From: Anthopleura xanthogrammica
Taxonomy: Eukaryota; Cnidaria; Anthozoa; Actiniaria; Actiniidae
NCBI GenBank assembly: GCA_964019055.1
Contig: OZ025207.1
Location: 16,023,357 to 16,087,356 of the forward strand
Direction of reading: 5' to 3'
DNA: 64,000 bases
Position 1 is the first letter of the stretch, and every line of letters begins with the position of its first letter. Below are positions 9,701-61,704 of this stretch, in pieces. A model generated the notes under the pieces. It had not been told where the DNA came from and did not search any database. It saw nothing but the letters and a program-made list of their open reading frames with translations. A program made the translations under genes and the position numbers.

Positions 9701-12700
9701 ACCACTGAAACATAAAAATTAAAAAAGATTGAAAGGTTTGAACATGACATTCCTATCTATTTAATATTATTATATCCCCAGTTAATTTTTCATAACAAGC
9801 ATTGACTGACCTAATGTGGAAAAAAACATCATTCATCCAATAATTTTTTTAATTATTGGACGATTGGCGTCATTCGTCCAATAACTAAAAGATTATTGGA
9901 TGATTGACGTCATCATAGCCGCCAAACAAAGATGGCTTCCCAGGGAAGGTTTGCCAACCTATTTGAAATGCTTTCTAAATGACTGAATTAAATTTACTTT
10001 GAAAATATTTGAATAAATAATAAAACAACTATTGGATTCGGCTATCGTATGATATGAAAATTATGCATACCTCGAAGAGTGATATCCGCCTCAGCCTATG
10101 GCTTCGGCAGATAACACTCTCCTCGTTATGCATAATTTTTCATATCATAGTCAGCCTCATCCAATAATTGCAAAATATGTATAGTAAGTAAAACTAGATG
10201 GACAGTTGCTATGACAACTACTCTAAAACATGTCTTCCCCAGTTAATTAATAGGTTAACTGGAGCTGAAACCATGGCAGTTGCAAGGTATCAAGTTATAT
10301 GATTGTGTAGAAAGCTCTGCTCTCTAAAAATCAAGTGAACAAATTGAAATTGAACCTAAAAATATCTGGAAAATTTAGATGAAAATTGAATATTTGATTA
10401 TTTCAAGTGAATTTGCTTATTTGATAGCGAAACATTAACTACTGTACACCATGTAAAATGGCACAAAAAGAGATACTGTAGCAATCAAGTTTGTGTGAAG
10501 TGCATAACCTAATGTGACATTAAAATACTGCTCTGATAGAACATGCTTTTAATTTTTAATTCATCCTGAAAACTGTTATTATTAAATTGTTAAGAAATAT
10601 TTTAATTGTTATTACTAAAATAATTTTACCAGTCGTTATTAAAATTCTAAAATCACTATTTTTCTGATAAGAATTTAATTCTTCCCTGACAACAACCACC
10701 CACACACTACTATGCTATTCTTAATCTTCTTATTCCAAATACTTTATCCTTACAATGCTTATAAATTGTATAGAAATAACAGACAGCATTGTCCTCCAAA
10801 ACGTAACCTTTAAAGTATATGGCACGGACATGTTTCAGCATGAATCTCACCTATCATTTACATCTGTCATAAATGGTACTCTTTCAGACCAACAGTCTAA
10901 CTTCTATGAAGATCAATTAACTACGGTTCAATTAACAACGCTGTTGAAAACATGTTTCTGCATGAACGGAGAGTGTTGTGTGTTTGTTTTTCTTCAAGCT
11001 TAGAATATCATTATTTTCTAGAAACAAATATAACCATTTATAATTTTTATTCATTTCTTAAATTTGTTTAAAAGGAAACATTCCTTCTTTAAGTTGTTAT
11101 GACAGGCACTTCCTGGAGCCTTAAGATGATGCAAAAATACAAATTCTGTTTTGATAATAAAATCTTAAATCAACAAAATGAGGGTAAACTCTGCTGTACT
11201 TGAGGAGTATTTCTTTTAACAATGAGAGGTCATTAAATATGGACAAAAACCAATAAAAAAAAGAAAACCAAATCAACAAGGACCTATTGATCAGAGCTCT
11301 GTTTTTGGTTTGCTATAAATGGATTGCTAATGAATAAAAAGAGTAATTTCGAACCATTCAAAACGTTTCATTAAAAACCTATGCCATTGAGCCATACATG
11401 CACCAGTTAACAAAAACCAAATAATTACTTTCGATGATAATTTTTCCTTAATGCTTAAAAAATCTGTCATTTTCTTAACACACCAGGAAGTAGTCTTCCC
11501 ACACACGTGTAGCAGGTGATATATATACGTATATATATATCTATATATAGCCGTGGGGAAAATATGATGCAATGTTTTACTATATTGCTTCAGGGGTGCT
11601 TTCCATTCAGTCTAGGTAATTGGAAATCCATTTTTACAGGCTAAAAAAACATTAAATATAATAAATCTTTCAAGTATATCTAATAAAGTAGACCTTAATA
11701 TTTATTAAAAAATGCAGTTTTATCTTAATTTTTTTTCCTTTTTTCAATCAGTCCAGACAGTAAGCTTGAGCTTTTTTTAATGACAAAAATGCCTCTTTTA
11801 AATCCTTTGAAAAACAAGTCTTTACTAAAAACACGTGGCCAAATGTAAATAAAAGGTCTTCCTTTGCCTAGGAACCAGAATAAAAATCTTAATATCGTAA
11901 AGAATTTCTGACTGAAAATTCTCTAACAACAAATTGTTTTTCGTAGTAACTATTGGCGTGTTTTTGAGTCGCTTAAAAATTTGGAAATTATTTAACGAGA
12001 AGCGATTCCCTAAGTGAGTATAGGGCTTAATGACTTCATTGTTCAATTTTCCTTGGATTTTAGGTTAAAAGATTTAAAATAAATGTTTTATTTTGTATTA
12101 CTTATATCAGGAACATATGGTAGAAAAGAACAAAAATATATACGTATCATAAATGGACAACACCTTCACCGACATCATTTAATATTAGGGCTATTTTGTA
12201 TGAAAATTTTAATTAAAGTCAGTGGTCAAAAACTCTTCATATACCTTAAGCCTGATGACAATGAAAATATTGTCGTTCTGAAATTATATATGTGAGAGTT
12301 TTAATAAAAAGCGAACCGAAAGAACAGATCAAAATTAGATTCTTGAATTCTAATTCGATTGAAAAGCGCACGTGTACGAAAGCAACAAGCGTAAATTTAT
12401 TTATTTTTTAGTCTCTTGTGGTTTTTGAAACCACTCCTATTCTCTAGTTTTTGCAAGAATACCATACGTTTTGTCGAAGATCCCCACTGTCAACAAAAAT
12501 ACCAATACACTTATGCTATATAAACCATGAATTAAGCCTTACCTATACAAGAAAGACCCAATAGTTTGACTACAGACTCGGGCGGTTTACATTCTGGGAA
12601 GAACGGCTTCGAAACGTACTCGGCGAAGATGAGTGAAACGATGGCACAGATCGCTGGCCTGTTGATGACGATTCCCGTCCAAGCAAACAAGAAGGCAGGG

Positions 12701-13083
12701 ATAGGACCAAAGGCTTTCATAAGGTACGCATATTCAGCTCCTGATTTAGGAACAGCCGTTCCTAACTCGGTATAACAGAGACTTGCAAGCATCGCTAGGA
12801 CACCACATCCTAACCAAACTATCAGCGAAAGACCGATGGATTTAGAAGTTACAAGAATTCCAGTAGGAGAAACGAAGATCCCAGAACCGATAACTGTTCC
12901 TACGATGAATGAGATCCCACTGAGCAGCGTAACACTTTTCTTTAACTCAATTCTATTATCATCTACCACTGCTTCAGGATCTCCCTCTGCGGCTGGTTGC
13001 TCTTCTTTTGGATTGAGAGGAGCCGAGGCATTATTTTCTTCAGCCCCAGAATTCTCCCCTGATTTATCGTCTTTGTCAGGCAT
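3748..13083 (-). CDS. SLC7-family L-type amino-acid transporter light chain
   Basis: Predicted amino-acid exchanger of the heterodimeric (LAT) type, expected to pair with an SLC3 glycoprotein heavy chain at the plasma membrane. Exons (minus strand): 12543-13083, 9579-9704, 9164-9263, 8242-8286, 7848-7971, 7118-7221, 6538-6634, 4734-4889 and 3756-3930; all junctions are GT-AG and keep frame. The joined protein is about 490 residues, the usual LAT length. Visible hallmarks are GSGIF at residues 66-70 in the first membrane helix, and a Cys at about 165 in FPECKPPE, where LAT proteins form the disulfide to the heavy chain. Others are WAYDGW then TEEMKNP, and WIIP followed by FGTVNG. The start is the MPDKDD methionine at 13083, giving a short acidic cytosolic tail; an upstream in-frame methionine at 13224 is less LAT-like. 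The 3' end is uncertain: translation through the exon-9 donor meets a TAG at 3748-3750, or a further exon may exist. Substrate and subfamily member cannot be fixed by eye. Confidence 0.9.
3985..4263 (-). repeat. Three 93-bp tandem copies derived from SLC7 exon 9
   Basis: Units start at 3985, 4078 and 4171. On the minus strand each contains a recognisable copy of the first part of the adjacent exon at 3756-3930 (PIVIPIF, then SSYLVIAS compared with SAYLVIAP in the real exon) plus about 40 bp of intron-like sequence. The 93-bp period is a multiple of three, and the minus frame is open through all three. The copies lie in the intron just upstream of the real exon in the direction of transcription. 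The true acceptor (TATCTTCAG) is replaced by a weaker ATATAAAG in each copy. Confidence 0.85.
4470..4626. repeat. Palindromic MITE
   Basis: Arms GTTATACAATGGTTTC and GAAACCATTGTATAAC, followed inward by GTGGCATACC and its complement, enclose about 70 bp. A second small palindrome follows at about 4631-4710 (arms CACCATAGAAAATAC and GTATTTTCTATGGTG). Both lie in the last SLC7 intron. Confidence 0.75.
6733..6875. repeat. Palindromic MITE in SLC7 intron
   Basis: Imperfect inverted arms contain CATCAGTTCACTGGTCA and its partner TGACCAATGAACTGATG, with AAAGCATTCA and TGAATGCTTTG further in. Confidence 0.65.
7330..7610. repeat. Dispersed inverted-repeat element, copy 1
   Basis: Starts near 'ctatttcaaaaaaagttcac' and ends near 'ttaaatagctgtattttt', with inner motifs GTTGCATACC, GGGTGATGTGAAT and AGCAACATGCAAC. 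A second copy runs from about 32737 to 33935, interrupted by the element at 32895-33858. This copy therefore shows what the uninterrupted sequence looks like. Confidence 0.65.
9270..9478. repeat. GGAT/GGTG tetranucleotide array
   Basis: About 200 bp of GGAT, GGTG and GAAT tetramers in an SLC7 intron. It generates spurious HPSIHPS open frames on the minus strand. Confidence 0.95.
9830..10165. repeat. Cluster of palindromic sequences in SLC7 intron
   Basis: Contains several inverted pairs: CCAATAATTTTTTTAATTATTGG at 9837-9860, and ATATGAAAATTATGCAT near 10057 against ATGCATAATTTTTCATAT near 10130. It looks like one or two nested MITEs. A related palindromic block lies at about 8490-8860. Confidence 0.5.
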
Positions 13084-15221
13084 TTTGACGAAATTGAGGA
13101 CTTTAAGACCTACGTAACTCGGTAGGTAGTCAAAGGTTCGTCTGACGGCGAGAAAATATCGAGAAAGCCTGATAATACTACAAGAACTCCTCGACCTCAA
13201 AACCTTTACTCGACTCACAGTCACTCACAGTCCACTCATGTTTATTGTGATCAGAATCAACCAATCACAGAACGCGATACATGAAGCCGTGTCATCCTTG
13301 CACGTGTTCGCGGCGTGGAAAGCGCGGGAAAAAAGACCGAAAATGGAAAACTTTCCATCAAAAAAGTCATATTTCACCAACTCATGAATGAAAACAAGTT
13401 TATATTTTGACAATTAAGTAATACAAACAAAAATTATCAATGTTCAATCTTTATTATTGAATTTCGTGAGAGATCTTTCGTCGGCGACTCGCTGTTGAAA
13501 TGATGCAATATATACTTGTCACGCCAGTAAAATGTAACGCAAGCGTGTCACGGTTAGCTTTGTGCTTTTTTAATATTACGTAACACTGATAAAAAGATGT
13601 AAATGAGATAAAAGTTTCAAAAAATATAGTAAAATTTTATAAACATGATTGTACAACTAGAGACATTAAAAAAGAACAAGAAAGAGATACAAAAAAATCG
13701 ATTTTTGGACACCAAAAATATTCATAACAAAAAAAAATTGCGGCAAAAAACATAAACTTTTAGAATTTATAAAAATATAACAACAGAGTTATCTTTCTTA
13801 ATCGTTAGCAACAGTAATCTTAAAAAAAAAATCGTTGGGTTTCCTGTGGTATTTCGTATTGGTCCACGCCCTACGTTTTTTGCCATCTCAACTACATTTA
13901 TAATTTACACAATAAATATATCCTGCTCAACAGCGGTTGAAAATATATATACTACTGAGGTAATTATTTGGTTCAGCTGATCACTCAGGAGATGCCTTTG
14001 TTCCCTTCATTTTCATCCGTCACACGAGGCCGGAATTCATTTAGCAATGAATCCATCGCTAGCAAAATAAAAGAATTGAAAGGATGCGAGTGGGATCTTC
14101 CTCCGTAAAACCAAGTATCAAATAAATCGACAATTCGATGTGGTGTCGAAAGTAAATCACGAGCCGTTCGAGAGACTGAGCAATCACTGTGTGATCTTTA
14201 TACATTTCTCACACAATGAAAAATTTTTTTGATGACATAGTCGAAAAAAATATATATTACTAATAGGTTTTGTTTTAGGAAACGATACGGCAAGTTCTAA
14301 GCTATTGTTTGCCGTATTCAGATCACCGTTTCTGATTGGATAATCATCACGGAAATAACTGTTTCGAAGCCATTTCAGTGTAAGTTACACACTGCGATAC
14401 AGAAGCCACGTGCACTCTGTCTTGAATCATGATCAATCAAAAGCGGAAAATGTTGGCTGTTTTTAAAAACATATCTAGTATCCCTAGTGTTCCACTCAAG
14501 TGATAAAAAAATCTTCTCTTCCGATAAGTAGTGGGAAAAGGAAGCTTTTCAATTTCTATTGATTGACAGATGTGAATTATCGATGAGAACTAACAATGCC
14601 GTTCAAGATGTGTGTTAGTAATTGTAATTCGAACATCAGGGAGAATTCTTCAGTTTAATTAAAAACTTAACTAACGTTAATAGTTATGAGCAGGTATCAT
14701 AGAATAGAGCAGTAAGTCTAATTGAAAACATATGGCCGGCATTGTTCCAGTCAAATCAGTGTAGCTGTCGAATGTAAAAGCATAGACAATTTTTATTTTG
14801 GAAGGTGGATCTCATATTCCTTCAAGAATGGGTTTCCTGTGGTTAGTAAATCTTTTTTTGCCCGTTCTCCTTTTTTCTCCTCGTCATTATATCACAACAG
14901 GAACCCCAAGGCAATGTTTTTCGCAGTTGTCGCATAACTTTTGTCGCCAGAATAGCTTTATAGAGATAGTTTATCAGTAAGCAAAAGAAATAATACTCAA
15001 GAGAATAACAAGTGATCTGAAATGGGAAACCAAATATTAGATCCATTCTGTTTTTATTTTGACTCGTATTTTAATTTGCAAATCAGCGGTCATCACCGTA
15101 AACCGAATCAACGTATGATGGTCTATTCTCCTTTCCAAAGGCCGAAAGTACGACTGGTAGTGACCTCGTGGAGCGCGCACAGGATTGTGGGGCTTAATTT
15201 GAGTAAGCAAGATGGCAGAGC
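13084..15221. other. Intergenic region, no gene seen
   Basis: A+T-rich spacer between the SLC7 start and the element cluster at 15.2 kb. Only short open frames are present, none with recognisable domains. It should include the SLC7 promoter on its left side, but no core element could be assigned. Confidence 0.6.
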
Positions 15222-16230: not shown

Positions 16231-18199
16231 TCAATGTATTTTCTTGAGTCTGTGTTTCACAATACCGCAGCTTTCTCCAAAGGTAAAAGAATTCATGCCA
16301 TGATAGTTGATGCCAAGCGCTGAGGTCCCGAAAGTACTATTTGATAAAATGAGGAAAAAACACTCAGCCAATAAAAAATGATCCAGCAAAACTCCCGTCA
16401 CTCCTTCGTACGTTGGAAACCGTTGTTTCTGGAAGATTCCGATGTGTTCTGGCTCCACATCTAATGTCAGAACTTTGCCAGGATATTGTTGTAAACCGTA
16501 CTCTTTGACCGCAATGTGATCAGTAGCTAAGAACCACTTTATGTTAGAAATCTTTAAGTTTGGATTAGACTTAGCGATCGATTTTTCCACCACTTGTGCG
16601 CAAGTAAAAAAGCTTTTGAAATTCTGTGTATTGAGGCGACGTTTTCTACCAAACGCAACATCCCCCATTCTAATATGCAAGCCAATTATAGGCGTACTCT
16701 CAGCAAAGCTCGCATTTTTGATCTTTGATAACCTATTTTCCAGTTCGGGAGATCTCTGGAAGAGAAATTCGTAAGAGCATCCTACAAGGAGGTATTTTAA
16801 AGGCGGGAGTATAATTCCCATTTCATCAGCCAATTGAGATAGGTACGGATTTGACCATATCTCTTGCGCAAAGTTCCACGTTGCGGTAATAACTTCAACA
16901 GGTCGGTCAAAATAGCTGTTAAAGTCAACACTACGAAACCAATGCGCAAAATCCGGATACAAATTACCAGGTTTTTCAAAGTCTTCATGTTGTAATTTCT
17001 TAGGCAATCCTTTGCCCCAGTAATGCGTTCTAGATTCAAGGCCTCTTAAATTAGCTACAGCATAATTCCATTTGATTCGTTTTGGCCAAAGAAAATTTTC
17101 TAGTGCCAGGGGCGCTGGGTCATTCCAGTCTATGAGAAAAGCTCTTTTTGTAAGAACTGCTAGGAAAAACAAGGACGAAATTCCGCCAATTCGGTTGCCA
17201 TATCCCGCACAACCATAGCCTTTTCCTTTACAAGAATAGACCAAGAATTTCCGAGGGCGTATGGACTTGAGTATTTCATCATGCATAACTGCATAGTCCT
17301 CTTGCCAGCCCTCTCCACAAAGTTTATGACTATTTAAACGTTTCTTATTGGTATCCAAATATACATGAGATAAGTTAACAACTTTGTCTTTGTCCCATAA
17401 GCCGAAACTGGAGCTAGGCTTCACGGTTCTTCTACGAGGCATTTTTACTTTCTCTTTTTTTTTATTGCTTTGGTATTCTTCATTTAAAATTGTTTGAGGT
17501 TTCCTTTTCGGTTTTGACAAAGTTCGATGGCGTCTTTTATGTCTTTTTCGCCGAGGTTCTTCCAGTCTACTGTAGTCTTCTTTAAGATGAACCATCTTTC
17601 CTTGAACGTGGAGAACGTTTCCAAATGAGTCTTGAAATACTCTGTTGAATGCTACATTAGGTACTGGAAAACAAATGGGGGAAAAGTCGTTAATTTATTG
17701 AGTACAAATTGCGCTTACTCCGCGGGAGAGAACAACACATCAAACAAACTCAACTCACATATAATCCAGTCAATTACCCATCACTCCCTGCGCGATTACA
17801 TTATATTGCATTCTAAATCTGTTTTCGTTGCAGTCAAAACTGTCACTAAGAAAATGAGGCATAGCGAGGACCCAGTATCTGGGGGCACCTAGAATAAAAA
17901 CGTAAAATTGGGGGGGGGGGGGCACGTGCCCGCCCCCTTCCAACGCCAGTGGCATTGCCATCATCCATCAAACAAAAAAGGCTCGATCTGAAAATTTTAG
18001 GGGCCATCCCCTCTCCCTTGCCCTCCTCTCTACGCCACTGCTAAGAAACATAGTCGAAATTCTTACCCATAACTTGTCGAGGTGTCCATGACATCTGACT
18101 AACCACCATCAAAAATAAAGCACAGGTTAAAGGAATAATAAATATGGAGCTTTTCAGAGAAAACTGTCTGCGAAGCCATCGTGGACGCCAAAGCCTCAT
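16231..18199 (-). CDS. Fucosyltransferase-superfamily type II membrane protein
   Basis: Probable Golgi glycosyltransferase; donor and acceptor sugars are unknown. Exons 18067-18199 and 16231-17663 (minus strand) join in frame at GT-AG sites to give 521 residues. Exon 1 encodes a short basic N-terminus (MRLWRPRWLRRQ) and one hydrophobic helix at about residues 15-35, a signal anchor. Residues 68-125 are a very basic stem (KKRHKRRHR-type). The catalytic part carries GYGNRIGG at about 198-205, HIRMGD at about 374-379, and a C-terminal LILSNSTFGTSALG segment. These resemble the G-x-GNR, HxR and STFG motifs of the alpha-1,2/alpha-1,6 fucosyltransferase fold (plant FUT1, NodZ, FUT8). The resemblance is from memory and distant, so 'fucosyltransferase' should be read as fold, not proven activity. 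The poly-A signal AATAAA lies at 16214-16219, 12 bp past the stop. A fragment of this gene is duplicated at 15711-15923. Confidence 0.75.
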
Positions 18200-42917: not shown

Positions 42918-45900
42918 TTAAATGGTTGTGTCCAGGTAAATGTGCCCTACATCACCAAACTCGTTCCCTCTAAACTTATTTGCCGTTACATCCAGATTAA
43001 CAGAACATTCAGGGTTCTCATCAGGGTCACTAACACTTCTGACCACGCACACCCCATAACCACTGTTATTGTGAATGGTGTTGTCGGTCAGAGTGGCTTT
43101 AGGTTTGGCTGAAGAGTCTTGCTGCAGTTGGACAGCAGCAGAAGAGTTGAACCCTTCTTCAGAGTCCTTGTTGTCCTGTCCACAGTTGTGGAAGTCACAT
43201 TTCTCTATCTGTATTGAGCTGTTGGGTTGAGCAACTACACCTGTTGACTGATCATGCAAATAATAAAGAATTACGCCTTGTGTTTGACTCCTTCCTACTT
43301 TCCTGGGCCCGGTTGTATGAAGGGTGGATAGCGCTATCGATAAGTTGGTGCTGTTATTCAATAAATTTATCCATTGGATAGCGCTATCTACCGTTTGTAC
43401 AACCGAGCCCTGCTTAAAATCCAAAAGGCGCAGAAATATATGAAACAAAATCATGAAACTTGTCGCGCAACATCATTGAGTTGCACGTTGCAGAGCGAAT
43501 GTTGCTCGTATTACCAACCCGCGCGCAACAAAATTTTAATCTCGCAGAGAATAGAAAGAGCTTCGACTTCTACAACAAAGTCGCGCAACAATTTTTGTTG
43601 TTGCACGGGTGGTAATAAAAGCAACATTCACTCTTCAACTTGCAACGCAACAATCTTGCGCGACAAGTTGCACGATTTTGTCGCTCGTATTTCAGCGCCT
43701 TAATCTAAAACTCCACTGTATATGCTTTTCAACATACCATGACACTGAATTTAACGACAGCCTAAATAACTTCCACATAACTAAAATTAATAAAGATTGA
43801 GCGTGTGGTGTAGGCACCATGCATACAATCCATACAAATATAAAGCCGCGGAAATACAAGCAACAAAATCGTACAACTTGTCGCACAACGTTGCATTGCA
43901 AGTTGCAGAGCGAATGTTGCTCGTATTACAACCCCGCGCGCAACTAGTTTTCATTGTTTCATTGTTGCAGAGAGTACAAAGAGATTCTACTTCTGTAACA
44001 AAGTAGCGCAACAAAATTGCACGATTTTGTTACTCGTATTTCCGCGGCTTTGGGGGCACTCACCTTTGCATCATAAACTTTACAATTCTTCATCACTAAA
44101 TTCCCTTCATTCTTGACTGTTATACCAGCTATACCACATTTAAGCTGGCAGTCCACCAGTGTCGCATCACCTTGTTTGATCACCAACATACCTTGCGGGC
44201 CCCCTTCACCTTCTTGCTCGAATGTGATGTTCTTGAAGTGTATGCCTGGGGCATAACAGTCGATGGAAAAGTCTTCATCGTCCTCACACAAAACTTTAAA
44301 AGAAATGAAAGATTCGAGTTAGCACAATAGATGTAGATTTTTTGGATCCAGTGCGACTTCTAAGCTTATTTATACCTCTTAATTCAGGATGCAGTCCATA
44401 GTGCATTTTATTACCCCACTTTCATCCCCTCTCATTTCATGACAAAACTCACCAAGGATTCTATTTGAATCACCAATACCAGTGATGTGAACAGTGTCTG
44501 TTAGATTGACTGTACCGTCCAGACCATACGTTCCTGGGTGGACAAGAATCAAGTCTCCTTCGTGGTACACCTCTAGGGCTTCAGCAAGATGTTTGCAGTG
44601 TTCAATGACTTTATCATCTGCAAAAATGAAGAACTGGAATTGGTTACAGGACTAGAGTAACAAACAAACAAACAGACAGACAAACACTGACCAGTAAACA
44701 GACAAATAAACACACAAGTAAACAGACAAACAAACAAGTAAACACACAAGTTAACATACAGACAACAAACAAACAGACAAACAAACAAATGAAAAACAGA
44801 CAAACAAACAAATGACAAACAAACAAATGACAAACAAACAAATGACAAACAAACAAATGACAAACAAACAAATGACAAACAGACAAATAAACACACAAGT
44901 TATCATACAGACAGACAACAATCAAACAGACAGAAAGACAGACAAACAAGGGAAGAAGTTGCATTCACTATCAGCGCTTAGCAGCACAGCTTTTCCCCCC
45001 TCTGCACTTCAAGACTTCACCTAACAATACTAAGCTCTGAAGGTGGAAATGTGCTTCTTGGAGAGGAATTTTAACACTAGGACAAATGTTAAAAGAAAAC
45101 ACCAACTTATCAACACTACATGAATCAAGTAACCTGGTAGAGACTTGACCATTCCAGCTGTCATCTTAGGTGCAACAATAAATGTAACAGGAGTCTCTCC
45201 TTCTAGTCTAGGACCCTTTGGTTTACGCAGAGCAGCTTTAGCAGCAGGGGAGACGGCAGCCAGCAAGTACCTCATCTGAGGGTTCTCCATCATCTGTAAG
45301 GAGTTGACAAGGGTGTTGCATTCTTCTGTCTTTTGAGCACATTTCAGAACATCCAGGTCATCTAGTTCTTGTTCTGAGTCACTTGCTGACATCTGTTTTC
45401 TTAGTTGTTCAAGCTCTGCCAGCTTCATCTTGTACTGATCGTATGTCTCTGTTAAATTTGAATCATTCAGCTTTATTAGAGTAAGGAATGGAATAGCTTG
45501 TGAACAGCCTTCACACTGCTTCCCCTGTGGGAAAGAAATGTTTTTCACCCGATTTTCACCAACAAAGAGAGGGTAAGAGTAGCCGTACACAGGCTAGGAA
45601 AGGAATAAAGGGACCTAATGCTATTTTTATTTATTTATAAGCATTTAGGAATTGAAATACAATCCCAAGGGGATATATCAATAGGACACGTAGTCCTTTA
45701 CAAAGGTCAATCTCCAAAAATCTTAGAGGGAGGGGGAGGGGACTGTTGAGTCAGACACAAATAACAGGGAAGAGGTAACACATTTTTATTCAGGGAAGAA
45801 AGGGGACGCCATGTAAATCTATTCACTAGTACCTATATAAACTAAAATAACTAATGTGTTACATGAAAGGGTGCAGGAAAATAGAATAATAGTTTATTCA

Positions 45901-49184: not shown

Positions 49185-49762
49185 TTCTTAGAGATATCTA
49201 TTCAAATAATCGGGACAAATGAAGAAATATTTGGCGCAAAGAAAACTGAATTTGGCGCACTCGCCTCAGTCTACTTAGCTCAACATCGATGTCGACTGTT
49301 GAGGAGGCCTGGACTAAAATACGAAGCCAGTGAAGCATTGTGGGATTTATTTCCTTTTTGGGCACAGATTTCTGAGAAAATTCTTTTCTTGGAACCAATA
49401 ATCTTTGGAACAGACAAAAGGGTTCTGTTTACAAATTTTTTTAAAGTTTATAATTTCTTTAAATTTTGATTTTCAACTGATAAATACCAATGGATTTATT
49501 TTCGCACAAGCAGTGCTGAGTTTGGTGGTCATGACAGTATGCTCTTTCCATAGAATCACAGTACTAAACCGTTCGCAGACGGAGAGGAAAACACGAAGGA
49601 ATTAAAAGATCTTCGAATTCGCTAGTACTGAAAACAGTGAGAGAATTGCAGAAAATTATTGGAAACTTTGAGTTCTTTTGATAACCCAGACAGAAGCCCT
49701 GACAAGAGACATAAAGCTTCGCATAAGTTCTAAGTACTAAAGTCGGACTGACGGGCTTCGAC
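49185..49762. promoter_or_regulatory. Head-to-head intergenic spacer
   Basis: 578 bp between the start codons of the SHCBP1-like gene (minus) and the first ROCO gene (plus). It must hold both promoters and 5' UTRs unless upstream exons are missed. No TATA or CpG-rich core stands out. A bidirectional promoter is inferred from geometry alone. Confidence 0.4.
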
Positions 49763-52700
49763 ATGCCTCTCACCGTAAAACATTTCCAAACTGACTCCAA
49801 TGACTTCCAAACAGCAGAAAATGTCCTCGCTCAAGCAGAACTGGAAGGCCTTCCTCCAGAAACATTCAGTATTTTCCAAGACATGGTGGAGGAAACGGGT
49901 TTTGAAAGAAGAGATGTGGCAGCAAAAAAGGAAAATAAACAATACGTATTACAGGGTCAGCTTCTTGTTCTGGGAGATCCTAGAAACGGAAAAACTAGTC
50001 TTGTTAAGGCAATAACTGGAGAGGAGTTCGATCCACAGGAAAACCAAACCAGTGGCGTGGAATTCAAGTTTGTGGACCGGATATGGGAGACTTTGAATCT
50101 ACAGGATCTGAAATTTGGAGACTTCAATGAGTATTCTAAGAAAAGTGTCTGCAACAGTAAATTTTTTCCAAGAGTTCTAAATGAGGATTTAGATGAGGAT
50201 AACTCTGAAGATGGATCTTTTTGGGTATTTCTGGGTCTTGTATTTCTAGTTCTAGTTGTCTTGCCTATCCTATTAGGGGCTTTTATGGGGGAAAGTAATG
50301 CAAGATGGCTGATTTATTTTGTCGTTATATTTGTTTTTTTGGTTTCATCTTGCATAGGACAAGGCTCTGTCACTATATTACTTACGTTATATTTCCGAAC
50401 CCTTGCGACATGTGTTGCATACGAGCTTTTTGGGTGTTCTGACGAACCAGTTCCAATGCGTCTTAGTTCATATCTCAATCATCTCGTAACTGCTGACATA
50501 ATTCCTCTCCATGTCATGAATCCTATGATCTTCTTCGTCTTGGAGTGGCTTTCCCTAGTTTGCATTGGACCGATTTTGGTTTTAATGCAAGGGTTGTTGT
50601 CCAAGCTTCCTATGTCAGGAGCATTGTTTCTTAACTTTATGTTCAGATACCGAGAGGAAGTTCTTCAGCCATTTGTAATATTTCTGTTCCACTTAATTTT
50701 CTTTGCGCCAATAGGGCTATCTTGCTACCGATCTTCCATTGTTTTCCCATTTGAATGTGTAGTCACCTTGCTGATGCATATCACCTTATTGTACCACCAA
50801 AATATACTTAAAAAGACATGCACATTTACTGTGATATCTATGGAGCTAAGCATCTTCATACCACTGTGTTTCACTGAGCTTGGCAAATGGAATATATTCA
50901 TTAATATAATAGCCAATATTTTTCTGTTAAGTTCAGGAATTGGCCTTCATGTATATGGAAAATGGCTGGAATTTAAAGATGACTTCAACGGCAAATCTTT
51001 TACACAAGTTGTTTTCTATAAAGATTTTCCTCTCCACATTATTAAGATAAAGAAAGCCCTTATCGATATGAAAAGGCTGAAATATGCCCTCAATGAAAAG
51101 TTCAGTTCATTGAAGTTGAAAGTACTGGACTTTGCAGGAGATGAAGATTATTATGCTTACCACCAGATCTTTCTAAACAGCAATGCTCTTTATGCTGTTG
51201 TATTTGACGTCCAAGAATACATCAGAGATGAATTCAATAACATTGAGACCAAAGTAAGGAGGCTTCGTTTCTGGTTGGAGTCAATCCACAGCAATCTACC
51301 TCACGGCACCCCCATCTTCCTGGTTGGTACTCACAGGGCAGACATCAAGATGGACACTCTGATAGAAATCAACTGTTGCATCAAAAAAGCAGTATGGCAC
51401 ACGCCTTTCAATGAAAGCATTGTTGTTAACGAAAAAGATAATTTAGTGTTCTTTCATGTCGAGAATTCAAGGGGTTTAGCAGACGATGATGTTCTCACAC
51501 TTCGTGAAAAGATAAGGTCTGTGGCTGAAGATGAGTTTAAGGATGTTATTGGCCAGGAAATACCACTGTCTTGGATCAAAATCCAGGATGCCATCATCCA
51601 GTACTTAGAAACAAATGAAGGACCAGTGTGTCTCACTGTAGAGGATTTCAAGAAACATTTTGAGCACTTGTACATAGAATGGGATGTTGAAATGCTGAAG
51701 TACTTCCACAAAAAGGGTTTCATTATCTACCTAGACAAGGATCCAGGACTTTCAAACTGGGTCCTGTTAAAACCTGATGTGCTAGTGCAAGCAGTGGTTT
51801 TGTTGATCAATCCACCTACTCAGCTAGCCAACAAAATGGGACAAAGAGGACACTGGCAGCTTCTGAAAAACAGAGGAATAGTAACCAAAACCCTAATGAG
51901 AAGCGTCTTATCTCACGTAGGGAAAAACGAAGAGTCCTCTCTTACAGCGTTTTTGGAGGAATATGACCTACTTTGCCCCCTTAAACACCCATCTGATGAC
52001 ATGAAGGGCCTCCAACCCATCATGCAGACAACACATTTTGTACCATCACTACTACCAATGCCATCAGATTTACAAAATGTGTGGGTGTCTTCCGAAGATG
52101 ATAAAAAATTTTACATCTTTTTCAACCATTTTCTTCCGGAAGCTTTGTTCTACCGCATTCTCTCTCGTGCAAGTAAGCTGACTCTTACTTTAAATCCTAA
52201 GAGTAAATGCGTGATATATCGCGACAAGGGATTGTTCTGGCTTTCTCCTGACCAGGCTTATTGCCTGCAACTACTAAAAGACGAGGGTCAAATTGAAGTT
52301 ACTTTCAGGTAAGCTAATTTTTTAAAAGGCTCTTAAATTCTTGGTAGTCCATTCAGTAACTCATAGAAAAAGAGAACACGAGACAAACAAAAACCTTTGC
52401 GCACAGGAATTGCGGCACGTTTTGGAAGAAAAGAACTGCTCATTTTCCCAAAAAAAGCATAACATTTTAGGCCCTAAGCTAGGGGGGACTAAGTTATTGA
52501 AATAATAAACGAACTCGTATTAATCTCAGTTGGGCTTTTATAAAGTGCATTGTATACAGACTATATGCATGCGCATACGTTCTCTTGTGTCCACGGACTA
52601 GTGACAACAAGTTGCGGATGCATATCAGTTCAAGAATTTTTTTACAATGAAAAGAAATGCTGACAAGTTTAAGGGGTGACTTTAGGTTTTAGCATTTATA

Positions 52701-53337
52701 TAGTCCATTTGGAAAAATCTGAAACTAAAAGTTGCATATTTTACAATACGTTTTGGAGTATGCGCAAACGTATTTATCTCGTGTGCGTCTAGAATTTTCC
52801 GTCGTAGAGCCGGAGTTTCTCCTGGTCATTACTAAGAAACTGACCAGGAGCAAGGGAAAAGCTTTGGACGAATTCAAGAACTTGTGCCACTTTCTTGTTT
52901 CAGTTTCATTGTTTTGACATTTTTGTGTCAGCAATTACTTTTTTCGTGATGGCAAACACGACCGCAAGCTTTGGGAACGAGAATGGAGGACACGTTACGA
53001 ATTCACATCTCTTTAACTAACGTTTTTTTTTTTTTCATTTTACAGCACCAAAGATACTGACCAGCAGAAGCCATATGATATCCTTGTCTTAATTGCAGTC
53101 AGCATTGTTGAGAGCATTTGCAAACGGGATTTTCAGAACCTGTCTTTCCATTGTGGACCCGAGTGCACTTCTCCTAAGTGTCCTGGTTTCCCAGACGACA
53201 GCCTTTCTCACTTTGCTGGTCAGCGTCGACGTCACGTGATCGATGTGTATCCAGCACAAAGCTCCGAATCTTTCAAGTGCCTTAATTTTCGTTCCGATGA
53301 TGAGGCAAATTACTGGTTACGGTCAGGTTCGCGATAG
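49763..53337 (+). CDS. ROCO GTPase with multi-helix membrane insert in the Roc domain (paralog 1)
   Basis: Predicted Roc-COR GTPase of the ROCO superfamily (relatives LRRK2, MFHAS1, DAPK1). Exons 49763-52308 and 53046-53337 join as AG|C to give 945 residues. Order: N-terminal segment 1-60; Roc first half with P-loop GDPRNGKT at 71-78 and switch-I-like QTSGVEF at 95-101; an acidic stretch at 140-150. Next is a membrane block at about 152-400 with roughly eight hydrophobic segments (about 153-174, 182-210, 255-280, 303-321, 329-347, 354-370, 377-398). Roc second half: DFAGD at 456-460, HQIF, VGTHRAD at 521-527 (G4-like) and ENSRG. The COR domain opens with IPLSWIKIQD at about 600 and continues with KGFIIY, FVPSLLP and FLPEALFYRIL to 848. 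Last is a 98-residue tail with FHCGPEC and RRRHVIDVYP. In ordinary Roc domains P-loop and G3 are about 45-60 residues apart; here they are 385. No leucine-rich repeats or kinase are present. Both GTPase halves should be cytosolic, so the number of helices should be even. Ligand and function are unknown. Confidence 0.88.
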
Positions 53338-53766
53338 GACACAAGGTACCTTGGAGAAGACCACGTGCATGCAAGTTTCAAAATAATTAATTTAGAAACT
53401 TTGGACATTTATAATTTTGGTGAGAAGCCATCACAGGAAGCCCAGGCTCTGTATCTTTGTAGCCACTACAAAGCACCTGTATGTGAGAATATTCATTTGC
53501 TCATTACATGGGAAATCGGGAATGAAAAGCCTTACACTAAACTTACCTGAAATCATGTTGCCTGATTGTGCTGTTTTCTTACGTTGATAATGGTTTCAGT
53601 TGAAGTGAACCACCCCATTTCAGGTAAAGTTTCAAGGCTTTGTAACGTCTACAAAGAAACAGAGCCTGGGCTTCCCGTGACGCCGTAAGGCAATGTTTAT
53701 GGGACATAGCTACAGTAGCTAGGGGTGTGAGCTTATGTCCGTGAGCGTCAGAACCGTGAATTATGC
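53276..53766. repeat. Duplicated ROCO tail and 3' flank, copy 1
   Basis: From the last 20 codons of paralog 1 through about 430 bp of 3' flank, this block is repeated at 61221-61704 with high identity. Inside, 53436-53462 and 53649-53676 are inverted partners (GGAAGCCCAGGCTCTG and CAGAGCCTGGGCTTCC), as are CTTACCTGAAAT and ATTTCAGGTAAAG, so the flank itself contains a foldback element. Confidence 0.9.
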
Positions 53767-54624: not shown

Positions 54625-54845
54625 TTAACGATAGATAGATGCTTTATTAAGATGAGTAGATAGATGATAGATAGATAGATGCTTTATTAAGATGAGTAGA
54701 TAGATGATAGATAGATAGATGCTTTATTAAGATGAGTAGATAGATGATAGATAGATAGATGTTTTATTAAGATGAGTAGATAGATGATAGATAGATAGAT
54801 GCTTTATTAAGATGAGTAGATAGATGATAGATAGATAGATGCTTC
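54625..54845. repeat. 40-bp tandem repeat
   Basis: Unit GATAGATAGATAGATGCTTT plus ATTAAGATGAGTAGATAGAT, about five and a half copies. Confidence 0.95.
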
Positions 54846-55215
54846 ATTTATTGAGTAATTTTTGTTTCACGGGTTAAGTTATTACGTCACTCTAAAGTGG
54901 TGCAATAAAAATGGTATTTTTTTAACATTCTTTTTGCATTTTATTATTTCTATCTTTTTAGTGGAGCTTCTACGGTGGTACGATAACCTTTTATTGAATC
55001 ATTTTTCTATTCTTAAACCAAGCCATTTGCCAATATATTTTAATTTACGTAGTAGCTACGTTTTTATTATAATTTACAAGAAATAAATAATATTAGAGTG
55101 CAAACACTAGAGTGCAAACAATATATCCGTGAAACATTAGTTATACTAAATAGTACAATTTTGTGCAAATTCTATTGTTTTCTATTGTTTAATTAGCACT
55201 ATTTTGTACTATTTA

Positions 55216-55360
55216 GTGCACTTCCGGTTTCCCGGACGATAGCCTCTCTCACTTTGCTGGTCAGCGTCAACGTCACGTGATCGATGTGTATCAAACCCAA
55301 AGCTCCAAGCCTTTTTTTAAAAGTGCCTTAATTTTTGGTCCAAGGATGAGGCAAATTACT
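55216..55360 (+). pseudogene. Broken copy of the ROCO C-terminal exon
   Basis: Matches 53163-53317 of paralog 1 (GGTTTCCC-GACGA, CTCACTTTGCTGGTCAGCGT, GTCACGTGATCGATGTGTAT) with a deletion of about 12 bp near the start and length changes near 55311 (a T run before AAAGTGCC). These disrupt the frame. Both flanks are unrelated. It is the remains of a tandem duplication unit just upstream of paralog 2. Confidence 0.85.
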
Positions 55361-56141
55361 ATTTTCTCCAAAATAGAAGTCCAAAACTACACTTGATCTC
55401 GATTTTATCGAAATTGTTGGCCCTAATCCGAAATATCCAACACTGGAATTTATTTTGCTTATTATTATTATGGAACTAAAACCACATATTTCGAAGATAA
55501 AACAGAATATATAAATTCTTTTCTAGAACAATCAGCATATTCAAAGAAAAACGTGTCTTGACCCTGAGCTTGGGCACCAGAGGTTTGATTTCGTTCTAAA
55601 ACAGTAAACACCGGAACGAGAATAACCTCTGGACCAGAGGGTAGTCTCGACCAAGTCCCACGCTGAGTTGTTTTCCTCTAGCTGCTGTTTCAATGGTCGT
55701 CACGTGCAAACGCGTGATGCAACGCCATTTTCTCTACTAGCGAGTTACAATACAATACAATACAATCAGAAAACAATAAAGAGGGTGACGTACTAACCCA
55801 TCGAGTTATCTAACTTACGGAGTTGGTCGACTGTGTCCAAAAAAAATGACCTTTATGAAGGAAAGTCAAATTCATCCTATCAGATTTAAGATGTGTTTGA
55901 TGGTCGTATCATCTGTCAGTCACATCAGTCTGTCCCTTTCTCTGTTTACATTTCCCATAAGGCATCGTTTTCTTGGAAAGTAATAATGCGATAGAACCAC
56001 TAAGGCTTCGAATTCTGCCAGCAAGAACCTACTGTTGCTACAAGAGAGAATTGCTAGCAGTGTATTCATAGCTTAGTTCTACTGAAATAGAATTGGTCCT
56101 ATAATATTGACAAATCAGTCTAGATAAGTCAGTATTAAATC

Positions 56142-59100
56142 ATGCCTTTAAAATACATTGCAGTGGGTTGCAACAACATTACTACAGCAGAAGATATCTT
56201 TCGTGATACTGAACGGCAAGGCCTTGATCCAGAAGCTCGTGAGGTTGTACAAGACATGGTGGATAATCTTGGGATTGAGCAAAGGGAAGTGGCAGCGACT
56301 AAAGAAGAGAAACAGTTATACGTATTACAAGGACAGCTGTTGGTGTTAGGGGATGCAAGAACTGGGAAAACAAGTACGGTTAAAGCATTGACAGGAGAGG
56401 AGTTTAAAGACGATGAAAACGAAACCAAAGGCGTCGAGTTTAAATATGTTAACCAGGAATGGGAGACTTTTGATCTGCAAGACATGCAAGCTGGAAACTT
56501 TAATCGATTTGCCGAAAATATTGATATCGAAGAAGCTTCGTGGCCTCCAATATTTCATAAACGACGAAACACTATTAGAAATGACCACAAGTCATTTGTC
56601 GGGATCTGTTGTCGTAGTATTATTAATGCCTTCCTCTCCCTTCATTATAGTGAACTAAAAGACATAGTGTGGTTTACAATTTTTGATATGATCTGCCTCC
56701 AAATAATTTCGAATTCTATCTATTTCAATTTTTTTACCGAGAACTTTATGGTTCAATGGATTCAATGGTTATTTTATGTTCTTCTCTTTCGAAGATTTTT
56801 CAATCCGGCAGCTGACCGGAGAAAACTATTAGGTTCCTTAATGGTCTTTTTTCTTCTTCTCCATTTTGGTCATTCCTTGATGACAACTACTAGAAATTTG
56901 CGCACCGTTGATTTACAAATGCTGTTCCTATGCGATTGTCCAAATGCCGAAACAATTGTTTTCGGCAAGGTTTTTCACAGGTGCCACCTTCTATATCCTC
57001 TGATATTAGTTATTTTGGCGTCTTTTTTTCTTATCATATGTTGCTTACTAGTAATAATTGTTTGGTCTTTATTTATTATGAGGGGAAATTTTTTTAAGTT
57101 TCATAATCTGTTGATAGAATTGCAGTTTAAACTCACGCCTTTATTAATTTTCCATGACGTATTACCCTTGTGGGTTAAAATATTGTTAAGAATATTAATA
57201 ATAATTTGTTTTGGTTTGTTTGGTCGATTTTGCTTCTTTCGCTACTATACACCAACAGCTAATGGCTGCTTCATTTTTACTTTGCATTTATCTTTATTGT
57301 ATCAACAAAATATTCTCCTAAAGTTGTACACAGGAGCTGCTTTGGCCCTCGAGCTTGCTATCATACTTCAACTGCGTTATATTGGTTTGGACAGCAAAGT
57401 ACAATTAATACTCTTGTATGTCATTTTAGTATGTGTTGGAATAGCTCTTCACATCTATGGAAGATGGCTTGAAGTCAATGTTTCTGAAGACAGGATAATT
57501 AAGTTCTTTGGCAGAGATCCCACAATCTACTGCATTGTAATTTTAAAGTTTTCTCCTAATATGCAAAAGCTCAAGGCCAACTTTTGCAAACTGAAAATCA
57601 AGATTCTTGACTTTGCAGGAGACGAAGAGTATTATGCTTATCACCAGATCTTTCTGAACACCAATGCTATTTACGCTATTGTATTTAACATCCAAGAATG
57701 CATCAAGGACAATTTCAAGGACATTGAGACCAAAGTAGGGAGGCTTCGATTCTGGTTGGAGTCAATCTACTGCCATGTACCTCAGGGCACACGTGCACAC
57801 ATCTTCCTGGTTGGTACTCACAGAGCAGACGTAGAGATGGACACTCTGAGAGAAATCAACACTTACATTTACAAAGCACTTGGGCATTTGTTTATTGATG
57901 AAATTTTTTTGAACGTGGAAGATGATTTGATGTTCTTCCATGTTGAGAATTCAAGAGGGGTAAATGACAATGGCGTAATCAGTCTTCGCAAGAAGATCAG
58001 ATCTGTAGCTGAAGATGAGTTGAAGGATGTTATGGGTCAGGAAATACCTTTGTCTTGGATCAAAGTGCAAGATGCCATCATCAGATACCAGGAAAATCGT
58101 CAGAGACCTGCCTGTTTCACTGTTCAAGAGTTTAAAGAAATGTTCGATCACTTATATATAACATGGAGCGAAGATATGCTGAGATACTTCCACGAGAAAG
58201 GCTTTATCATTCACGTGGATAAAAACAAAAATGAAGGACTATCGAAATGGGTGCTTTTAGACCCTGATGTCCTGGTACAAATAGTAATTTTGCTGATCAG
58301 TCAACCAGAGGAATTAACCAACAAGAGAGGCTTTAGAAGGCACTGGACTATCTTAAAGAAATCAGGGATGATAACCAAGGACCTTCTGCATTTCATTGTC
58401 TCTCATGCCACTGGAGCAACTAAAGAGCGGGCACTCATTACCTTCATGGAAGAATACGACCTGATTTGTCCTCTCAAAGACCCATTTCGTGACATGCAGC
58501 ACCTTCCAGACATCAGACAGATAACACATTTGGTGCCATCACTGCTGCCTGCAGCCTCTGAATCACAAGCAATTTGGCTGGAATCCGGTGAAGATGTTAA
58601 GTTCTACATCTTCTTTGACAGCTATGTTCCAGACGCATTCTTTTTTCGCCTTCTCTCCCGTTCCTGCAAAGCGTCGTACGACGGAATAGAGTGTTACGAG
58701 CCGCAAATTTACCGAGATTGTGGAGTGTTCTCGTATTCTCAACAAATTTATCGCCTCCGAATCCTGAAGGATGAAGATCTAATCGAAGTGACATTGACAA
58801 AGTAAGTTAATTCTTCTATTCTGCTTAAAGATCTTAAACATGCTTTTCTGATGTCATTCCAAGGACTACCTGCAGCCTCCTCCTCCTCTCATGTACCTTC
58901 CCTAGGCAACTCCAAATGTCTCTTGATATTTAGAGGGACAAAGTAATTGCCTTGATTCTTTTCTGTGAGCGTAAGGGTTCAGCAAATGGCCTATAGGGTT
59001 CAAGGGTTTGACAACTGGAACCTCTTGCATGATTGGGGCTCAAAATATTTCAAAATAGTTCACTCACCACACAGAATACAGAGGTTTTGTGAAGCTCATA

Positions 59101-59615
59101 TCCTGATAGATCATGTAGCGATTCAAACAAATGAATTCAGTTCACAGTTACATAGGAGCCATAGGGGTAAGCCGGGTATCGAAGCCTCTCCTAAAAGCAA
59201 ACTGCCAGTTGGCAGGCAGTCCAAACATCTCTAAACATATAATAATATTCTACATTTATAATATACTTCATTTCTTCTTTTAACTAGGCCTACAGGTTTT
59301 TTGAAACCTTTTGACATCCTCCTCGCCATTGCCACCAGGGTAGAGGATATCCGTAACCACGACTTCCACAATTTGTTTTTCCATTGTGGACCTGAATGCA
59401 GTTCACCAGTTTGTCCTGGTTCTTGTACAGACAGCACGTCCTCGTTAACAGGTCAGCCACGTCGCCATGTGTACAATGTATACCCGGCTTGCAAACAAAA
59501 AGGCCCGAAATGTTTTCAAGATTTCTTCAAATGCCAGAATGTTTTTCGAGGAGAGGATGCAGAAATTTGGATGCCACCACCGAGAAACCGAGGACCAATA
59601 GAGGGACTGCGATAA
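56142..59615 (+). CDS. ROCO GTPase with multi-helix membrane insert in the Roc domain (paralog 2)
   Basis: Tandem paralog of the gene at 49763, with the same two-exon structure: 56142-58801 and 59288-59615, joined as AA|G, giving 995 residues. P-loop GDARTGKTS at 70-78 and switch-I-like ETKGVEF at 94-100. The membrane block at about 150-440 has hydrophobic helices near 175-195, 203-216, 229-246, 283-313 (long, possibly two), 334-366 (possibly two), 376-393, 396-414 and 420-440. Then come DFAGD at 490-494, GTHRAD at 558-563 and VENSRG. COR runs from IPLSWIKVQD at about 635 through LVPSLLP to YVPDAFFFRLLSR. The tail has FHCGPECSSPVCPGSC, a PRRHVYNVYP motif, and extra cysteines (CKQKGPKC, FFKC) that paralog 1 lacks. 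P-loop to G3 distance is about 420 residues. Outside the membrane block the two proteins align almost throughout; inside it only short pieces such as LHIYGRWLE and LLYQQNIL remain alike. Confidence 0.88.
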
Positions 59616-61218: not shown

Positions 61219-61220
61219 AA

Positions 61221-61704
61221 AGTGCCTTAATTTTCGTTCCGAGGATGAGGCAAATTACTGGTTACGGTCAGGTTCGCGATAGGACACAAGGTACCTTGGA
61301 GAAGACCACGTGCATGCAAGTTTCAAAATAATTAATTTAGAAACTTTGGACATTTATAATTTTGGTGAGAAGCCATTACAGGAAGCCCAGGCTCTGTATC
61401 TTTGTAGCCGCTACAAAGCACCTGTATGTGAGAATGTTCATTTGCTCATTACATGGGAAATCGGGAATGAAAAGCCTTACACTAAACTATACCTGAAATG
61501 TTGATTGTGCTGTTTTCTTACGTTGCTAACAGTTTCAGTTTCAGTGGTTCACCCCATTTCAGGTAAGCTTCAAGGCTTTGTAACGTCTACAAAGATACAG
61601 AGCATGGGCTTCCCGTTACGCCGTAAGGCAATGTTTGTGGGACATAGCTACAGTAGCTAGGGGGCGGAGCTTATGTCGGAGAGGGTCGGAACCGTTAATT
61701 ATGC
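61221..61704 (+). pseudogene. Second copy of ROCO tail end plus 3' flank
   Basis: Begins mid-exon (AGTGCCTTAATTTTCGTTCC) and follows 53276-53766 through the stop codon and the foldback-bearing 3' flank, with scattered substitutions and small indels. There is no upstream ROCO coding sequence, so it is a relic. Confidence 0.9.

Follow-up and report, generated by a model that had tools for sequence, protein, structure and literature searches.

GTPases are normally instructed by separate receptors and exchange factors, and in the Ras-like members the interswitch hairpin shifts between the GDP and GTP states. G-alpha subunits carry a helical domain inserted near the switch, and the inserts of G-alpha and of the bacterial GTPase MglA lie before or at switch I and are soluble. 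In MglA the insertion is reported to lie between G1 and G2 (PMC4316618). For the ROCO proteins, in which a COR domain directly follows the Roc GTPase domain, the literature describes a brown-algal ROCO group with ROC domains of 77-467 residues, one of which has a non-conserved sequence inserted inside it (PMC11378527), algal ROCOs carrying a C-terminal domain that resembles transmembrane proteins (PMC4104024), Toll-like receptors of Aplysia that carry ROCO domains (PMC9334734), and a crystal study of the LRRK2 ROC which reports an interswitch able to flip outwards and enter a second protomer, an indication that the hairpin can be mobile in a ROCO (PMC12889809). The present analysis concerns a window, that is, the whole stretch of DNA analysed, of 64,000 nucleotides from the anthozoan Anthopleura xanthogrammica (GenBank assembly GCA_964019055.1, contig OZ025207.1, forward-strand positions 16,023,357 to 16,087,356), in which one gene, called gene 1 here, almost certainly encodes a membrane-embedded protein whose Roc domain is split by a block of hydrophobic helices. 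The split-Roc design as it stands in the DNA is genuine.

Gene 1 lies in a + strand open frame of 861 codons (49727-52309), the earliest ATG of which is at 49763; residues are numbered from this Met, which leaves 849 of them, and the motifs at 71, 456 and 522 fall at 83, 468 and 534 of the full frame. An earlier note on this DNA had placed the P-loop, the hydrophobic helices, DFAGD and GTHRAD within a single exon, and they are found there, the P-loop and DFAGD at the residues it gave; the exon takes in the two halves of Roc with the membrane block between them, followed by COR-A. Gene 2, a tandem paralogue, likewise opens with MPL, its ATG standing three bases inside the open frame; the MPL start precedes the P-loop by some 60-70 residues in both genes and, being common to the two, is probably where translation begins. 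When exon 1 is joined to exon 2, the splice sites of which are inferred from consensus and from comparison with gene 2, a protein of 945 residues results.

Profile searches and alignment both identify this protein as a ROCO. Over the entire frame, Pfam recognizes Roc at 61.6 bits (cut-off 27) and COR-A at 39.1 bits (cut-off 35.3), and when the halves are searched separately, Roc exceeds its cut-off in each of them (N half, 31.1 bits, E 3.1e-7, profile positions 2-39; C half, 34.0 bits, E 3.8e-8, profile positions 50-117), with COR-A also present in the C half alone (40.9 bits, E 2.5e-10). Across 14 aligned rows G71, G76, K77, T78, S79, T96, D456 and G459 are invariant, leaving G1, the switch-I Thr and DxxG intact, and within switch I F89, E93, T96 and G98 are unchanged. 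The residue that follows DFAG is Asp in gene 1, Gln in the 12 bacterial rows and Arg in LRRK2, while the G4 position reads GTHRAD, longer by one residue than the GTHLD of LRRK2. Judging from these motifs, binding of GTP is likely and its hydrolysis uncertain. The suggestion of a full COR domain stands in part, COR-A being detected by Pfam in gene 1 and COR-B giving no Pfam match there; the end of the protein sits on exon 2. Leucine-rich repeats (LRRs) and a kinase were likewise without Pfam match in the exon-1 frames and exon-2 parts of genes 1 and 2, so that neither gene shows in these exons the classical LRR-Roc-COR/LRRK arrangement of LRRs ahead of Roc and a kinase after COR; additional exons farther upstream are not excluded by RNA.

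The extra residues lie in the interswitch loop. When 12 bacterial Rocos are aligned with gene 1 (12 of the 13 loci found; L013, in which 37 of 101 query residues matched, was excluded), the Roc landmarks are invariant and the additional sequence falls between strands beta2 and beta3. A by-eye comparison with insert-free ROCO genes of the same genome places the break more tightly, at ~105-447, as GVEFKFV, insert, SSLKLKVLDFAGD, where the uninterrupted counterpart in L025 reads GVDISVLPLKDIKCKVYDLAGD; the distance from TSGV to DFAGD amounts to 360 residues. AlphaFold models of genes 1 and 2, whose input alignment included 12 insert-free bacterial Rocos, close the two Roc halves into one predicted Roc fold across the insert, and the gene 2 model aligns to the LRRK2 Roc-COR across residues 58-878; a Foldseek search of the gene 1 model against viral structures yielded no match at E≤0.001. 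The position within a single Roc that the note had proposed is thus upheld by the 12 bacterial proteins, by six insert-free genes of the same genome (by eye) and by both models, in which the halves are also predicted to share one fold.

The block that separates the halves is strongly hydrophobic. In gene 1 it contains seven 19-residue windows with mean hydropathy ≥1.6 and eight at ≥1.3, with one extra window (1.51) located in COR, and in copy 3, a further paralogue, it contains eight windows ≥1.6. The hydropathy profiles of inserts 1 and 2 resemble one another (r 0.68; 0/266 circular shifts above 0.31). Topology was scored with a crude home-made model, not a validated predictor, and its helix borders partly differ from the hand assignment; in all three copies its top-ranked solution has eight crossings and leaves both ends in the cytosol, in keeping with the approximately eight helices of the note. 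This solution beats the best odd-numbered one that starts inside by 11.7 units in gene 1 and 13.9 in copy 3, and the best outside-starting solution, with nine crossings and the C end inside, is 5.3, 7.6 and 9.7 units lower in gene 1, gene 2 and copy 3, respectively. The Roc halves can meet only if the number of crossings is even; one Roc fold, eight crossings and both ends inside is the arrangement predicted. By hand assignment, the interhelix loops of gene 1 carry five K/R inside and two outside, and 8/22 inside loop residues are kept between genes 1 and 2, against 4/32 outside. The block segment with the highest conserved share between the two genes is QNILKKT, and the inserts align strongly with each other in one place only, the final third from LLYxQNIL to HxYGxWLE (27/67 identical), which adjoins beta3.

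It could be argued that the block is a retained intron or a separate gene, or that the two Roc halves never form one domain, the membrane lying, say, between them. They would indeed be separated if the crossings were odd in number, the seven-crossing solutions of the crude model being 7.0-18.6 units under the best, and on a simple consensus score the right edges of inserts 1 and 2 offer acceptor-like sites of up to 7.9 and 7.2, the real acceptors having 10.8 and 8.9, so that acceptors alone leave splicing possible. At the left edges, however, the best donor-like sites attain 3.8 and 3.0 and the real donors 11.1 and 9.5, and the 318-codon insert of gene 1 has no in-frame stop, for which the probability by chance is ~2e-9 on base composition alone, whereas its five other frames hold 6-31 stops each (18-31 for insert 2). 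All three copies keep the insert open, with the copy 3 stop coming just past it; eight crossings rank first in each of them; and amino-acid changes over the block are fewer than synonymous ones (pN 0.41-0.52, pS 0.62-0.72 in three pairwise comparisons). The retained-intron reading was rejected on the lack of a good left-edge donor and on the constraint, the acceptor scores being less clear, and an artefact of any of these kinds is very improbable; the note's statement that the split Roc does not arise from the gene model is borne out by the three copies, the donors and the constraint.

The split-Roc feature is wider than first noted, with a second complete copy in the window and a third just outside. 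Gene 2 has the same order of parts as gene 1, with 47% identity (42% by tblastn), and a Pfam Roc of 52.5 bits (cut-off 27). Copy 3, detected by a search of the organism's own genome (289.8 Mb, 125 contigs), is made up of two pieces, in which P-loop, eight hydrophobic windows and DFAGD are followed by an exon-2 match. A genome search with insert 1 finds itself and copy 3 and misses gene 2, so that further diverged copies could go undetected. Amino-acid identity over the block is 22-27% between inserts 1 and 2 and 22-36% across copies, copy 3 being 35% identical to gene 1 and 36% to gene 2 over the whole of it. Comparison of copies 2 and 3 at the DNA level gives an identity of 90-91% for the Roc C half with COR (dS 0.18-0.20), 78% for the N part and 53% for the membrane block (dS 1.3), with mid-block values of 38-47% where the alignment is uncertain. 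In columns where copy 3 matches just one of the other two, residues 106-333 lean to gene 1 and most others to gene 2 (287 informative columns; z 7.5, a value reached by 0/500 permutations, maximum 4.8), the exceptions, in votes for gene 1 and gene 2, being 152-200 (6/9), 1-60 (8/6) and 405-438 (8/5). On this pattern copy 3 reads as a mosaic of the two genes. It would be explained if copies 2 and 3 had undergone gene conversion in their GTPase part, while the sensor part was left as it was or exchanged; relaxed constraint on helices 1-5 would give a like pattern. The pairing of a variable block with a constant Roc-COR is, by analogy, that of receptor families in which the input varies and the output stays constant.

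Other ROCO genes of the genome place this insertion in context. COR-A is found in at least 27 places at E≤0.001, a lower bound since genes 2 and 3 are absent from the list; the 27 loci were read with ~1.5 kb either side, some frames being cut. DxxG is present in 15 of the 27 frames, and hydrophobic windows between switch I and DxxG in one of these 15, which is gene 1 itself; a lone hydrophobic window outside that interval occurs in three more frames, near the start in L039 and near residue 430 in L041 and L042. In nine genes (L039-L047; C10, C18, C19, C1), 133-173 residues, 19-35% of them D/E and devoid of any hydrophobic window, separate switch I from DxxG, and the Gln of DFAGQ is kept; in the C18 gene, the only one in which it was looked for, the P-loop lies a short way upstream in a frame of its own, which is presumably an exon. 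Six genes, L025-L030 (L030 also labelled L048), have 47-49 residues from P-loop to DxxG with no hydrophobic window between, and Pfam, run on three of them, recognizes Roc-COR and LRRs in L025, Roc-COR with weak LRRs and Ras in L026, and Roc-COR with LRRs and ankyrin repeats in L030. Because the acidic stretch of L039-L047 and the membrane module of the C2 tandem share a site, the interswitch loop is, by sequence, an insertion hot spot in the ROCOs of this genome, and given the nine acidic-insert genes the site is less unusual than its cargo. The acidic class and genes 1 and 2 have a similar switch I and an insertion at the same spot; they differ in that the acidic stretches lack hydrophobic windows and accompany a retained Gln, whereas genes 1 and 2 carry the membrane block. 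Switch I of the membrane family, GEEFDPQENQTSGV, resembles GEKFDPKENSTDGI of L040 (it is GEKFDPKEDSTEGV in L039), a resemblance which, taken without a tree, tentatively suggests an ancestral ROCO that already had a long loop. When the C halves are compared by blastp, the top match of gene 1 is a C13 gene and that of gene 2 belongs to the acidic class, the scores being close.

The C13 cluster also displays a second GTPase motif set, GASGVGKS and DTAGQ, near the N end of its frames (L026:1436-5362, L028:758-4600, L029:2634-4670); in L026, Pfam identifies an N-terminal Ras domain alongside Roc, COR-A and COR-B.

The best explanation, to which we give roughly even chances, is a polytopic membrane ROCO of receptor-like character, in which a variable helix bundle would act on the interswitch. 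Roc would be assembled in the cytosol from two stretches of the chain, ~60-105 and 447-600, the chain exiting at the end of beta2, crossing the membrane eight times and returning at beta3, which would leave each end of the bundle attached to the interswitch hairpin. A ligand, a lipid or tension that altered the fast-evolving bundle or its outer loops could then pull or release beta2 and beta3, whose movement could alter the nucleotide state or Roc-COR dimerisation, with COR and the C-terminal tail relaying the signal onward. Taken alone, such outside-in coupling of bundle to switching has a probability slightly under one half; it is favoured because the ends of the bundle would be tied to a hairpin that shifts with nucleotide and can be mobile in the LRRK2 ROC. 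More speculative, and rather unlikely as it stands, is the extension to a one-chain receptor class in which the bundle would serve as a built-in exchange factor or GTPase-activating protein, the tandem family swapping sensor blocks between constant Roc-COR frames.

The block might alternatively do nothing but tether an ordinary ROCO to the membrane, the helices riding in a tolerant loop without influence on switching. The nine genes with an acidic stretch at this spot indicate that the loop tolerates very different cargo, and the block is poorly conserved across copies; eight crossings, however, go well beyond the needs of an anchor, the conservation of the block peaks beside beta3 and in the loop joining helices 6 and 7, which is predicted to be cytosolic, and the excess of synonymous over amino-acid changes extends over the block. 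We regard a pure anchor as possible but clearly less probable than coupling. The influence could also run the other way, with the Roc switch controlling the membrane module as its effector, so that GTP binding would open a channel, transporter or scramblase. A multi-helix bundle fixed at both ends to the switch hairpin, as the inferred geometry has it, would suit such a device, but the block diverges far faster than the GTPase, which is unexpected for a pore or transporter core, and searches for relatives were unrewarding: insert 1 had no match among solved-structure sequences at E≤10, and inserts 1 and 2 had none in NCBIfam and only a sub-threshold DUF6722 (insert 1) in Pfam. Feo gave no Pfam or NCBIfam match for gene 1 or either insert, and the FeoB-like order of GTPase followed by Feo membrane core is not the one seen here, the membrane block sitting within the GTPase; no 7TM receptor profile of Pfam matched either insert, although fast evolution could mask such a match. 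GTPase-gated transport is therefore placed last and considered improbable, and we favour outside-in coupling over a mere anchor, and an anchor over transport.

Several observations weigh against the receptor-like interpretation. The membrane-ROCO family is known from one genome, and part of it may be decaying: copy 3 has one in-frame TAA directly before DFAGD, after the open insert, a two-residue deletion by switch II, and Pfam scores below cut-off (Roc N piece 26.9 bits, COR-A 28.8, and no Roc in the C piece), on account of which it may be a pseudogene. In gene 2, COR-A is not recognized by Pfam. THRAD in place of NKxD at G4, together with Asp for Gln in switch II, means that GTP binding and hydrolysis are not assured. 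In the structure models, the insert-free bacterial Rocos of the input alignment favour closure of the Roc, matches of the ROC alone are level with those to small GTPases such as Rag and Rab, and most of the insert has a pLDDT <50 in both models, so that its fold and its packing on Roc are not readable from them. The topology is least secure in gene 2, whose block has only six windows ≥1.6, plus one in COR, whose margin is just 4.5 units over the best odd inside-starting solution and 4.3 over six crossings, and whose loops carry three K/R inside and three outside, leaving the positive-inside signal to rest on gene 1. Finally, the synonymous sites of the block are near saturation, and its high divergence fits weak constraint and diversification equally well. 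Within a known GTPase family the architecture is nonetheless genuine, recurrent and unusual, and a receptor function is plausible for it on the sequence.

Table 1. Positions of the split-Roc genes and associated features (window numbering; residues counted from Met 49763 of gene 1).
Feature	Position	Strand	Details and evidence
Gene 1 exon 1	49763..52308	+	ATG to phase-2 donor CAG/GTAAGC (GT at 52309); 848 codons + 2 bases
P-loop (G1) GDPRNGKT, residues 71-78	49973..49996	+	motif, Pfam, alignment
Switch I and strand beta2 FDPQENQTSGVEFKFV, residues 89-104	50027..50074	+	alignment; strand 99-103 in AlphaFold model
Interswitch insert, residues 119-436	50117..51070	+	limits from bacterial Roco alignment
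Membrane block, ~eight hydrophobic helices, residues 152-400	50216..50962	+	hydropathy, AlphaFold model, topology model
QNILKKT, residues 346-352	50798..50818	+	predicted cytosolic, loop of helices 6-7; 5/7 positions kept in gene 2
DFAGD (G3, switch II), residues 456-460	51128..51142	+	motif, alignment
GTHRAD (G4 position), residues 522-527	51326..51343	+	motif, alignment
COR-A domain, residues 601-764	51563..52054	+	Pfam
Gene 1 exon 2	53046..53337	+	protein end, Cys-rich tail FHCGPECTSPKCPG, stop 53335-53337
Exon-2-like relic between genes 1 and 2	55193..55362	+	sequence similarity
Gene 2 exon 1, tandem paralogue	56142..58801	+	P-loop GDARTGKT, membrane block, DFAGD, GTHRAD, COR part
Gene 2 interswitch insert, 356 codons	56496..57563	+	alignment, open frame
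Gene 2 exon 2	59288..59615	+	phase-2 intron at same position as gene 1
Direct copy of 53275-53766 (gene 1 end and sequence beyond)	61220..61704	+	93% identical
Copy 3	G000:C2:16087786-16090377 (L022:884-3484)		430 bases past window end; search of own genome

The exon-2-like relic is perhaps the remnant of a further, lost copy. Between genes 1 and 2 there is also a tandem array (54630-54848; 40-base unit, 5.5 copies, 98% matches), and elsewhere in the window the - strand holds exons matching an amino acid permease (12535-13224) and the SHCBP N-terminal domain (45033-45593), and one with a sub-threshold fucosyltransferase match (16234-17694). The Rfam scan of the window gave nothing above the gathering score. 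An alignment of the two genes found no relatives in the genome-contig and viral-contig collections, both patterns being drawn from the N-terminal part only, and tblastn of gene 1 against plasmids and phages gave no match at E≤1e-5.

If the proposed coupling is true, a membrane bundle inside the switch hairpin would combine the receptor with its G protein in one chain, and would provide a direct handle on how movement of the interswitch drives Roc-COR, a question still unsettled for LRRK2 and Parkinson's disease. In the ROCOs of the genome, the interswitch loop also emerges as a place where sequence has been inserted during evolution. Beyond the first reading, the analysis adds the second and third copies, the topology ranking, the predicted closure of Roc across the insert, the acidic-insert genes, the variable block beside conserved Roc and COR, and the mosaic structure of copy 3.

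The note knew of no ROCO of this design, and none with membrane helices inside Roc appears among the open-access titles and abstract starts listed, a coverage that leaves out most subscription journals and preprints and makes the agreement weak evidence. Compared with the Roc-COR of LRRK2 and LRRK1, the gene 1 family has no kinase, LRR or WD40 in Pfam and possesses the long TSGV-DFAGD span with its membrane block; it also has Asp where LRRK2 has Arg after DFAG. The bacterial Rocos of the Chlorobium type align with gene 1 over the core Roc motifs, but have 25-31 residues from switch I to DxxG in the three rows measured, all 12 aligned rows being insert-free, and differ from the C2 membrane family in that the latter is without LRRs. 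The brown-algal ROCO shares a long ROC with an internal insert, but has LRRs, and membrane helices are not reported for its insert in the available part of that source (PMC11378527). In the Toll-like receptors of Aplysia an animal ROCO is likewise joined to receptor parts, but there, in the portion of the report at hand, Roc and COR are accessory domains and Roc is not split by a membrane part (PMC9334734). G-alpha and MglA are comparable in working, as GTPases with an insertion near a switch, while the insert of gene 1 lies between the switches and is predicted to span the membrane.

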